Source of the DNA: Ceratothoa steindachneri
Taxonomy: Eukaryota; Arthropoda; Malacostraca; Isopoda; Cymothoidae
Direction: 5' to 3'
DNA: 64,000 nucleotides
NCBI GenBank assembly: GCA_963969495.1
Contig: OZ018321.1
Span: 187,765,485-187,829,484 of the forward strand
Position numbers and translations under genes: made by a program. Positions 42,866 through 64,000 of this stretch are shown here, piece by piece. Position 1 is the stretch's first letter, and the number at the start of each line of letters is the position of its first letter. The notes beneath the pieces are model-generated. The model was not told where the DNA came from and made no database searches. It saw only the letters and a list, made by a program, of their open reading frames with translations.

Positions 42866-44225
42866 TTATTTAAATGATTTCATCATTAATTCTTTGATTA
42901 ACAGTTCCTTTATATTCCTTGTCCGTTCTTCTATGACTTTGTTAATGGGACTTAACCCCGTCTCCCTGTGCACCTCTTCTTGGGGTCTTCTTTCTCGCCT
43001 GCATTTACCCGTAATTAGGTACACGCATTTATGCTGCACGACTTGTAGTATCTTCTTTTGTATCCTCGAGGTACAAGAGAGGGGGGGGGGGGTAGGGGTC
43101 GAGCAGCTTAGATCTTACAATTGCACTGTACATAGATCTTCTTTTTGTTGCTCTTATGGGGATTTATTCACATCAATAGAGCTCTGACTGTGGCCGAGGC
43201 CTTAGAAATCTGATCTGCGACGTGTTTCCTGTATCCGGATGAAGTAATCTTCATTCTGAGTACATTGCACTCCATGGTATAGGGATAACATTTAGCCCAA
43301 ACCCTGACCTTAGCAAGTAGTCTCCTTCCAATAGGGACTATGTTGAATGTCTCTTGGTTTGTTCATATTTTCCACTTGGCTTCGTAGATGTTTAATCTTT
43401 CGATCTCTGCCGCAGACATATACGAGCTTGCATAGGCGCGTTCCGCCAAGGACACTGGATTATCTGGCATAAATCATCAGCGTATTGAATTTTGAAGCAA
43501 GTAGGGTTCGCAAGGCCCAAGATATCTGCGGTGAATATCGAGTAAAGCGTGGGGGACAAACATCCATCCTGCGGGTGCCCCATATTGAGCGGAATCTTCG
43601 GCCCATCCGTAGGAACTTGTACTGCATTCCCCTTTGCAACACCTTATCAAACGCCTTTAATACATCCTGACAAACTATTTCCACGGAACTCCCTCCCCGT
43701 TTACCTTGGGCAAGCTATTCCGTGATGACATATATCGCCATCTCAGTACTTCAGGTTTTTTTTTCTAAACCCAAATTGGTACAGGTTGTACAGGGAGTTC
43801 TCCTCCGGGTGAGACACCAATCTTCATTTTAGGATCTTGTGGAAGAGCTTTCCACCAAATTCCAAGAGTGAAATTGGCTAATAGCTCTCTGTCAACGTTG
43901 GATCCTTTCCACGCATCGGCAGGAAAATCATCTTAGCCGCTTTGTAAGCATCTGCAAAGTATCCTGTGTTTAGACAGGCGTTAAAAATTCGTCTCATTAC
44001 TTCGATGACATTTGCTAATGCCGTGTCAAAAGTTTAACTTTGTAAGTCCCGATTGTCTTGGAAACTTTTGACGGAATGATTGGAGCACGCCGAGTAGTTC
44101 CTCTTCGGTAATCTCGGCACCTGCGTCGCGTTGTCTATTTACCTGGTATTGCGGGTGGATCCTATGTATTTGTGTATTAAGCTCGTTTATAATATTGGTT
44201 TGAACTCTATATCCTAATTATCGTT
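42866..44225 (-). pseudogene. Jockey-type retrotransposon ORF2, second copy, joined to the satellite
   Basis: Same family as 1-1298. Read downward from 44225: decayed pre-RT linker with FRS-WEEIFNIP and EITEEELLGVLQSF-type text; VIEVMRRIFNACLNTGYFAD and AAKMIFLPMRGKDP (about 44020-43910); PISLLEFGGKLFHKIL (about 43900-43850); VCQDVLKAFDKV (about 43675-43640); DGCLSPTLYSIFTADI (about 43570-43520); IQYADDLCQII with YADD at 43473-43484. A thumb (KWKI-TNQETFNIVPIGRRLL) and C-terminal part (RIQKKILQVVQHKCVYLIT) end in a stop near 42870. Stops and shifts are many. Its upstream end passes directly into the first 152-bp satellite monomer in the continuing protein order. Confidence 0.85.
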
Positions 44226-44466
44226 ACATTCTTAAGGTATATTGAAGATTTCTTCCCACTAACTTCGGAATATTGCTTCTATGTTCCTTTCTTCTCTTTC
44301 GATGTTTCCATTTTTTTAATATTTTATTTTCTTCCTTTTTCCCTGTGGATCCTTTAAGATGACAGATTTTATTCCAAAAATCTTTGGGAGATGCATCATG
44401 ATCGAGGCTTTCGATCGCATCGTTATAACGTCTCAATTTCTTCTGTTTCGATGATTCCATCTTCTT
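44226..44466 (-). repeat. Edge ('founder') satellite monomer still fused to the retrotransposon frame
   Basis: On the minus strand, 44460 downward is open and reads KLRRYNDAIESLDHDASPKD, FWNKICHLKGSTGKKEENKI, then passes (one frameshift in a run of seven A at about 44312-44318) into GNIEREERNIEAIFRS and on into the RT linker of the Jockey-type element. All other monomers carry the first part and then jump back to its start. The short sequence ATGGAAWCATCGAAASAG plus AGAAA appears twice here (from 44460 and from 44311, 149 bp apart), bracketing one monomer length. Confidence 0.8.
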
Positions 44467-60800: not shown

Positions 60801-63800
60801 TGCTTTATGATCGAGGCTTTCGATCGCATCGTTATAACGTCTCAATTTCTTCTGTTTCGATGATTCCATCTTCTTTTAATGTTTGAATTTTCTTCCTTTT
60901 TCTGAGTCGATTCTTTGAGATGACTGATTTGATTTCAAAAATCTTTGGGAGATGCATCATGATCGAGGCTTTCGAACGAATCGTTATAACGTCTCAATTT
61001 CTTCTGTTTCGATGATTCCATCTTCTTTTAATGTTTTATTTTTCTTCCTTTTTCTCAGTTGATCCTTTGAGAAGACTGATTTTATTCCAAATATCTTTGG
61101 GAGATGCATCATGATCGAGGCTTTCGATCGCATCGTTATAACGTCTCAATTTCTTCTGTTTTGATGTTTCCATCTTCTTTTAATGTTTTAACTTTCTTCC
61201 TTTTTCTCAGTCGATCCTTTAAGAAGACTGATTTTATTCCAAATATCTTTGGGAGATGCATCATGATCGAATCTTTCGATCGCTTTGTTATAACGTCTTA
61301 ATTTCTTCTGTTTCGATGATTCCATCTTCTTTTAATGTTTGAATTTTCTTCCTTTTTATCAGTCGATCCTTTGAGATGACTGATTTTATTTCAAAAGAAT
61401 TTGGGAGATGCATCATGATCGAGGCTTTCGATCGAATCATTATAACGTCTCAATTTCTTCTCTTTCGATGATTCCATCTTCTTTTAATGTTTGAATTTTC
61501 TTCCTTTTCCTCAGTTGATCCTTTGAGAAGACTGATTTTATTCCAAATATCTTTGGGCAATGCATCATGATCGAGGCTTTCGATCGCATCGTTATAACGT
61601 CTCAATTTCTTCTGTTTCGATGTTTCCATCTTCTTTTAATGTTTTAATTTTCTTCCTTTTTCTCAGTCGATCCTTTAGGAAGACTGATTTTATTCCAAAT
61701 ATCTTTGGGAGATGCTTTATGATCGAGGCTTTCGATCGCATCGTTATAACGTCTCAATTTCTTCTGTTTCGATGATTCCATCTTCTTTTAATGTTTTAAT
61801 TTTCTTCCTTTTTCTGAGTCGATCCTTTGAGATGACTGATTTGATTTCAAAAATCTTTGGGAGATGCATAATGATCGAGGCTTTCGAACGAATCGTTATA
61901 ACGTCTCAATTTCTTCTGTTTCGATGATTCCATCTTCTTTTAATGTTTGAATTTTCTTCCTTTTTCTCAGTTGATCCTTTGAGAAGACTGATTTTATTCC
62001 AAATATCTTTAGGAGATGCATCATGATCGAGGCTTTCGATCGCATCGTTATAACGTCTCAATTTCTTCTGTTTTGATGTTTCCATCTTCTTTTAATGTTT
62101 TAATTTTCTTCCTTTTTCTCAGTCGATCCTTTGAGATAACTGATTTTATTTTAAAAATCTTTGGGAGATGCATCATAATCCGGCTTTCAATCGCATCCTT
62201 ATAACGTCTCAATTTCTTCTGTTTCGATGATTCCATCTTCTTTTAATGTTTGAATTTTCGTCCTTTTTCTCAGTCGATCCTTTGAGATGACTGATTTTAT
62301 TGCAAAAATCTTTGGGAGATGCATCATGATCGAGGCTTTCGATCGCATCGTTATAACGTCTCAATTTCTTCTGTTTCGATGTTTCCATCTTCTTTTAATG
62401 TTTGAATTTTCTTCCTTTTTCTCAGTCGATCCTTTGAGATGACTGATTTTATTCCAAAAATCTTTGGGAGATGCATCATGATCCGTCTTTCAATCACATC
62501 GTTATAACATCTCAATTTCTTCTGTTTCGATGTTTCCATCTTCTTTTAATGTTTTAATTTTCTTCCTTTTTCTCAGTCGATCCTTTGAGATGACTGATTT
62601 TATTCCAAAAATCTTTGGGAAATGCATCATGATCGAGCCTTTCGATCGAATCGTTATAACGTCTCAATTTCTTCTACTTCGATGTTTCCATCTACTTTTA
62701 ATATTTTTATTTTCTTCCTTTTTTCCAATCGATTCCATTGAGAAGTCTGATTTTATTCCAAATATCTTAAGGAGATCCATCATGATCGAGGCTTTCGATC
62801 GCATCGTTATAACGTCTCAATTTCTTCTGTTTCGATGTTTCCATCTTCTTTTAATGTTTTAATTTTCTTCCTTTTTCTTAGTCGATCCTTTGAGATGACT
62901 GATTTTATTCCAAAAATCTTTGGGAGATGCATCATGATCGAGGCTTTCGATCGAATCGTTATAACGTCTCAATTTCTTCTACTTTGATGTTTCCATCTAC
63001 TTTTAATATTTTTATTTTCTTCCTTTTTTCCAATCGATTCAATTGAGAAGACTGATTTTATTCCAAATACCTTTAGGAGATGCATCATGATCGAGGCTTT
63101 CGATCGCATCGGTATAACGTCTCAATTTCTTCTGTTCGATGTTTCCATCTTCTTTTAATGTTTGAATTTTCTTTCTTTTTATCAGTCGATCCTTTAAGAT
63201 GACTGATTTTGTTTCAAAAAAATTTGGGAGATGCATTATGATCGAGGCTTTCGATCGAATCATTATAACGTCTCAATTTCTTCTCTTTCGTTGATTCCAT
63301 CTTCTTTTAATATTTTTATTTTCTTCCTTTTTTCCAATCGATTCCATTGAGAAGACTGATTTTATTCCAAATATCTTTGGGCAATGCATCATGATCGAGG
63401 CTTTCGATCGCATTGTTATAACGTCTCAATTTCTTCTGTTTCGATGTTTCCATCTTCTTTTAATGTTTTAATTTTCTTCCTTTTTCTCAGTCGATCCTCT
63501 AGGAATACTGATTTTATTCCAAATATTTTTGGGAGATGCTTTATGATCGAGGCTTTCGATCGCATCGTTATAACGTCTCAATTTCTTCTGTTTCGATGAT
63601 TCCATCTTCTTTTAATGTTTTAATTTTCTTCCTTTTTCTGAGTCGATCCTTTGAGATGACTGATTTGATTTCAAAAATCTTTGGGAGATGCATCATGATC
63701 GAGGCTTTCGTACGAATCGTTATAACGTCTCAATTTCTTCTGTTTCGATGATTCCATCTTCTTTTAATGTTTGAATTTTCGTCCTTTTTCTCAGTCGATC

Positions 63801-64000
63801 CTTTGAGATGACTGATTTTATTCCAAAAATCTTTGGGAGATGCATCATGATCGAGACTTTCGATCGCATCGTTATAACGTCTCAATTTCTTCTGTTTCGA
63901 TGTTTCCATCTTCTTTTAATGTTTGAATTTTCTTCCTTTTTCTCAGTCGATCCTTTGAGATGACTGATTTTATTCCAAAAATCTTTGGGAGATGCATCAT
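54870..64000. repeat. Higher-order duplication of at least 3.2 kb, offset 5926 bp
   Basis: Sequence at 55634, 56425, 56604, 57113, 57458 and 57610 reappears exactly 5926 bp later (61560 to 63536) and is still matching at the window end. Before 55.6 kb the offset is 5774 (54874 against 60648), one monomer less, so one copy gained or lost a monomer. The segment with FGKCIMIEPF-type monomers also occurs at 46729 and 53110. Confidence 0.8.

Follow-up and report, generated by a model that had tools for sequence, protein, structure and literature searches.

A satellite array derived from a LINE ORF2 linker and likely grown in place from the decayed copy at its edge in Ceratothoa

The start of a satellite is a long-standing question, since in most cases homogenisation wipes out the founder. 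The locus of Ceratothoa steindachneri studied here, a stretch of 64 kb (the window), raises this question anew: a tandem array runs into a broken retrotransposon. Does the array descend from the element, and did it grow where it lies? The probable founder is identifiable here by a protein domain, a reading frame and a breakpoint, and the last monomer marks the limit of homogenisation. The array is best explained as a satellite from the ORF2 linker of a LINE, likely grown in place from the dead copy attached at 44287-42824. If true, its in-place birth shows how new satellite DNA is born.

The array fills the final 19.7 kb of the window (44288-64000, minus strand) and is open at the window end. 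Tandem Repeats Finder (TRF) reported it as the single such array, with 129.8 copies of a 152-bp unit and 91% matches. The monomer was matched 130 times by nhmmer, always on the minus strand and nowhere else in the 64-kb window. The roughly 130 head-to-tail monomers start every 151-153 bp without interruption along the whole array, and their mean identity to the majority consensus is 94.8% (128 aligned monomers, edge monomer left out). This is the long, homogeneous head-to-tail array that defines satellite DNA. Two linked subtypes, distinguished at sites 71 and 90, are intermixed along the array: F-H in 61 of 128 monomers, I-L in 62 and other combinations in 5. Identical monomer pairs are frequent at lag 14 (12/114) and lag 39 (14/89), against one or two at lags 1-3, which points to block duplication via unequal exchange. 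Misassembly could also produce identical monomers at these two lags, and array length and block structure would then be partly an artefact. This is highly improbable: the majority of the pairs at lags 14 and 39 are non-identical, and edge, homology and junction would be unaffected in any case.

The unit length of 152 bp is not a multiple of three. Divergence from the consensus at codon positions 1, 2 and 3 is 0.060, 0.046 and 0.062 over 105 bp. With this near-even variation the array varies like non-coding DNA and gives no sign of protein function; a protein-coding role for the array was ruled out on both grounds. Searches for RNA genes and tRNA genes found none.

The origin of the unit is visible in its translation. 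Reading the minus strand from 44439 gives the peptide KLRRYNDAIESLDHDASPKDFWNKICHLKGSTG. A set of 77 homologs was obtained with a read-through of the broken RT adjoining the array, a query that contained the linker. Thirteen of them have an FW..I motif 166-171 residues ahead of YRPISL. F, W and I are invariant across these 13 when aligned, and the following K and G are present in at least 90%. In the edge monomer, this core of the ORF2 pre-RT linker reads FWNKI (44365-44379, minus strand). In all six proteins scanned with Pfam, the linker match has the endonuclease domain before it and the RT domain after it, which is also the domain order of Jockey-type LINEs. A Pfam search with the linker peptide itself gave no match.

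A linker profile of 38 residues was built from the 13 homologs. In place, the highest score of an array monomer was 25.4 bits and that of the edge monomer 24.1 bits; the best match outside the array in the window reached 1.2 bits. As cut-out sequences, the majority consensus scored 29.7 bits and the edge monomer 30.3 bits. A typed monomer, two bases away from the majority consensus and identical to no single real monomer, scored 29.8 bits. The maximum among its dinucleotide shuffles (2987 scored of 3000) was 12.5 bits. This maximum was exceeded by 100 of the 129 real monomers, while 29 stayed below it. The best linker match was on the expected strand in 129/129 monomers.

Selection bias was controlled with a second query, the related RT at 3-1187 of the window, which was used without a linker. 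It matched 2257 proteins; 117 of the 120 matches listed were new. Among these 117, 25 proteins extend 195 residues or more upstream of RPISL. Every one of them carries FW 163-176 residues ahead of YRPISL, and 24 of the 25 have FWxx[IVL] there. The pre-RT part of these 25 proteins yielded a second profile. It detected array monomers with up to 23.8 bits, against 4.0 bits for the best non-array match, and 52 array matches passed E = 0.001. On cut-out monomers it gave 22.8 bits for the consensus and more than 12.5 bits for 78/129. The agreement of both profiles, together with the shuffles, rejects a chance similarity of the monomer to ORF2. Weak protein matches come easily to a short monomer of skewed composition, and the LINE might then adjoin an unrelated satellite. 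With 29.7-29.8 bits for the monomer and no scored shuffle above 12.5, a second profile in agreement, and a spacing and frame that fit, the probability of this coincidence is close to negligible.

These comparisons establish, at the level of sequence, the homology of the 152-bp unit with one defined segment of a transposable element: the part of ORF2 between endonuclease and RT of a Jockey-like LINE. The initial annotation had read the minus strand of the monomer in the same way, as the pre-RT linker of ORF2. One of its peptides, ICHLKGSTG, is the form found in the edge monomer; the consensus of the array has ISLLKGSTE, in which the third place is L or H about equally often. The stretch from LKG to ITEEEL aligns poorly to the homologs, so the identity of the unit's second half as ordinary ORF2 of the focal LINE family is unproven.

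Relatives were expected to carry the monomer peptide once, ahead of the RT. The position before the RT was seen in all 25 listed proteins and all six domain scans described above. For the number, 19 of the 77 homologs had any linker match below E = 1 (17 below 0.02), and 18 of these 19 had a single one. The remaining homolog, P0010, has one strong match plus a negligible second of 2.8 bits. Another LINE remnant in the window, at 16160-17622, was set aside as a single-linker control, its linker match being too weak (4-8 bits). The single linker bears on the idea that a short tandem linker repeat was already part of the LINE family, moved with the element and was later expanded, as in plant Ogre elements. 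Such a course has a precedent in Lathyrus sativus, where short arrays inside retrotransposons expanded into nine satellites (PMC7004042). It is very unlikely for Ceratothoa, given the single linker of the homologs and the frame shift caused by a 152-bp repeat, which would leave a carrier element unable to make full-length ORF2.

The array edge continues into the RT in protein order. One reading frame on the minus strand (44439-44029) crosses from the edge monomer to the start of the RT region, interrupted by two stops at 44226-44224 and 44220-44218. It contains, in this order, KLRRYND, FWNKI and ITEEELLGVLQSF, the last of these where the RT region begins. The profile domain in this frame scores 34.2 bits (model positions 198-345). 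A longer version of the second profile gives 33.2 bits at 44475-43984, from the edge monomer into the RT start in a single frame. Monomer homology stops at 44288; position 44226, which had been proposed as the junction, is in fact the first in-frame stop. The 34.2-bit domain is split between the monomer, with 21.8 bits, and the part beyond the array, with 14.0 bits, and 47 residues lie between them compared to 48 model positions.

The spacing gives the same picture. At the edge, FWNKI and Y*PISLL, the equivalents of FW and RPISL, are 165.3 codons apart. In homologs this distance has a mean of 167.9 residues (SD 6.3, range 141-176), measured in the 47 of 194 proteins whose two motifs lie 140-200 residues apart. 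Pairwise alignments had raised the suspicion of a large insert between linker and RT, which was dropped because the spacing is normal. The top-scoring matches across the junction (102.2 and 61.6 bits) are in the frame of the RT, not of the linker, and their upstream ends are probably over-extended; they are therefore taken as evidence for the RT and not counted for continuity. The LINE copy is thus continuous with the edge of the array, and its order, strand and frame are all as expected of a source copy, in agreement with the protein order first noticed at this edge.

Beyond the edge lies the rest of a decayed LINE ORF2 with post-linker, RT and C-terminal region (44287-42824, minus strand), broken by frameshifts and stops. 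A frameshift near 44024 moves the RT core one frame over; the core then changes frame again on its way to 42824, with model positions increasing along it. Profile A1 matched the copy on the minus strand at 44580-43996 (model 190-345), 44477-43752 (model 223-437, 102.2 bits), 43777-43592 (model 436-488), 43628-43422 (model 515-569), 43434-43111 (model 577-670) and 43123-42824 (model 684-756); the matches are spread over three frames, with the model order rising throughout. Judged from its sequence, the attached copy is dead. The best solved-structure matches of A1 include L1 ORF2p and R2, and the endonuclease half of the copy is outside the window. The top homolog of the broken RT is 31% identical over 98% of the query, and the 77 homologs include no close or intact family member. 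No phage records carrying the element were matched.

The named relatives of the focal element are from beetles and a spider. The putative assignment as Jockey-type follows the names given by the sources: relatives in Gonioctena, Araneus and Penaeus are called mobile element jockey, and one Araneus relative is an X-element. Unlike Jockey-type LINEs, the Ceratothoa copy is dead and has its endonuclease half outside the window. Other LINE remnants are present in the window, at 3-1187 (the related RT) and at 16160-17622. The named relatives of the former are crustaceans (Trinorchestia, Meganyctiphanes and Penaeus, among 120 matches listed of 2257).

The edge monomer is a mosaic. It is the last copy of the array, continuous with the element, and occupies 44288-44449 on the minus strand including 13 bp into the next unit. 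Its positions 1-85 (44365-44449) are identical to the consensus. Its positions 86-152 (44301-44364) have 12 differences and 3 gapped positions. This shift from 0/85 to 12/67 is significant (Fisher p = 2.9e-5). The other 128 monomers have on average 4.0 differences in the first part and 3.8 in the second. Two of these 128 also lack first-part differences, and the maximum second-part count among them is 11; what is notable is hence the contrast inside one monomer, not the count. Six of the 12 differences are common to none of the 128 other monomers. At the F/I site the edge carries F, which is invariant in the 13 homologs; the others have 64 T, 63 A and 1 G. The 13-bp stretch at 44300-44288 matches the monomer start in 12 of 13 positions, with scattered matches beyond, and hints that the founding unit may have been flanked on both sides by a short direct repeat.

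We read the mosaic as homogenisation that stopped midway through the edge unit; a recombination breakpoint would leave the same pattern. The latter leads to a different history, in which the satellite arose from another copy of the LINE family and the decayed copy was joined to it later. Homologous recombination, gene conversion within the monomer or a 5'-truncated insertion annealing to the homologous array could have made the connection. Homologous exchange with an array born elsewhere would give the same collinear edge and the same mosaic, including the shift inside the edge monomer, and LINE remnants are common in the window (3-1187 and 16160-17622). This history requires an extra event, though. 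Strand, frame and spacing all fit a single element, an agreement that a truncated copy landing at an arbitrary site would fail to produce, and no other monomer of the satellite exists within the window. A later joining is thus unlikely.

Growth in place is preferred. The initial annotation had proposed it, with the source copy still attached; the collinear edge supports this, and growth itself we infer as the simplest reading. A LINE copy would have inserted and decayed. A linker segment of about 150 bp may then have been duplicated in tandem for the first time inside the inserted element, through replication slippage or through repair between short stretches of similar sequence; the right breakpoint would lie near 44288. 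The identical pairs 14 and 39 units apart suggest that unequal exchange then raised the number to about 130 copies. The interior would have been homogenised, and this process would have extended over the first half of the edge monomer and stopped there. The second half seems to retain older differences because it is anchored to single-copy element DNA, beyond the reach of homogenisation. The endonuclease half of the founder copy would be located beyond the far edge of the array, outside the window. With moderate confidence, the satellite is still joined to its founder: a linker piece would have been duplicated in one dead insertion and grown to at least 20 kb, and one edge monomer would show, nearly to the base, both where the founding break fell and where homogenisation stopped.

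Satellites from LINE coding sequence are already known; the Ceratothoa array is distinguished by its probable source copy, attached in frame. Passages of a review list PROsat of Phodopus roborovskii and Pvc 20 of the seal Phoca vitulina concolor, both related to LINE-1 ORF2, and the chicken HinfI satellite, related to CR1 (PMC9659126). The source regions given there are ORF2 or the 3' UTR plus partial ORF2, and any part of a transposon may serve as a satellite source (PMC9659126). The three satellites share with the Ceratothoa array the relation to LINE coding sequence; from what these passages describe, the Ceratothoa array differs in that its edge continues into the element (PMC9659126). For PROsat, the similarity to ORF2 (88%) is confined to a small region, whereas the linker match covers most of the short Ceratothoa unit (PMC9659126). 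Further LINE-derived satellites appear in passages of another source and include CR1-derived centromere repeats of chicken (PMC6947457).

Among titles, abstract beginnings and passages of the literature, no published description of the satellite in the Ceratothoa array was recognised, its absence being unproven. The passages of a crayfish satellitome paper do not contain the number 152 (PMC13130569). Viral contigs searched with a 26-base piece of the monomer gave no match.

The Ogre-derived satellites of Lathyrus sativus are likewise attached to their source retrotransposon in fixed order and orientation, and the authors read them as grown from within (PMC7004042). They stem from LTR elements, with arrays downstream of gag-pol that arose from pre-existing short repeats, whereas the Ceratothoa unit is protein-coding sequence and single in relatives (PMC7004042). 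A protein-coding stretch without repeats of its own in relatives can thus turn into a satellite. A Jockey LINE in satellite-rich DNA is likewise found with G2/Jockey-3 at Drosophila centromeres; it occupies the centromeres, and the passages at hand do not present it as a source of monomers (PMC8122249). Staggered mispairing or slippage followed by unequal exchange are described, in passages of a further article, as general routes of satellite birth (PMC12628747). The transposon-graveyard view in the same passages also has decayed transposons yield new monomers; the hypothesis newly put forward there involves composite monomers from several elements, whereas the Ceratothoa unit corresponds to one segment of one element (PMC12628747).

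Almost all monomers of the 152-bp satellite array at 44288-64000 (123 of 128) belong to one of two linked subtypes, F-H or I-L, named after the residues encoded in the ORF2 frame at monomer sites 71 and 90. Monomers of both subtypes are interspersed along the array.

A related LINE, represented by the RT and the C-terminal part, is located at 3-1298 on the plus strand and was detected with 387 bits by profile A1, the protein profile matching the RT region of the LINE next to the array. It is truncated by the window start and contains a single in-frame TAG. Its linker, the ORF2 segment between endonuclease and RT, would be expected beyond the window. 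A further LINE remnant (16160-17622, plus strand) is spread over two frames; it has a single, weak linker-like match and no array.

Tc1-type transposase pieces were identified by Pfam domain matches at 33983-35024 (minus strand), with DDE_3 at 33983-34360 and helix-turn-helix matches, the majority under the Pfam cut-off, at 34620-35024. The ORF at 37207-37593 (minus strand), which gave no match in the Pfam scan, presumably resembles the end of a mariner-type transposase. A sub-threshold Pfam match to a Tf2-1-like SH3 domain was obtained for the ORF at 22798-23406 (plus strand), which probably encodes the terminal part of a polyprotein of the gypsy type.

TRF also detected other tandem arrays. 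Two A+T-rich arrays at 10701-12517 and 19339-19617 have similar units, both of 17 bp, with 65-67% matches. Another, at 27771-28410, comprises 18 copies of a 36-bp unit.
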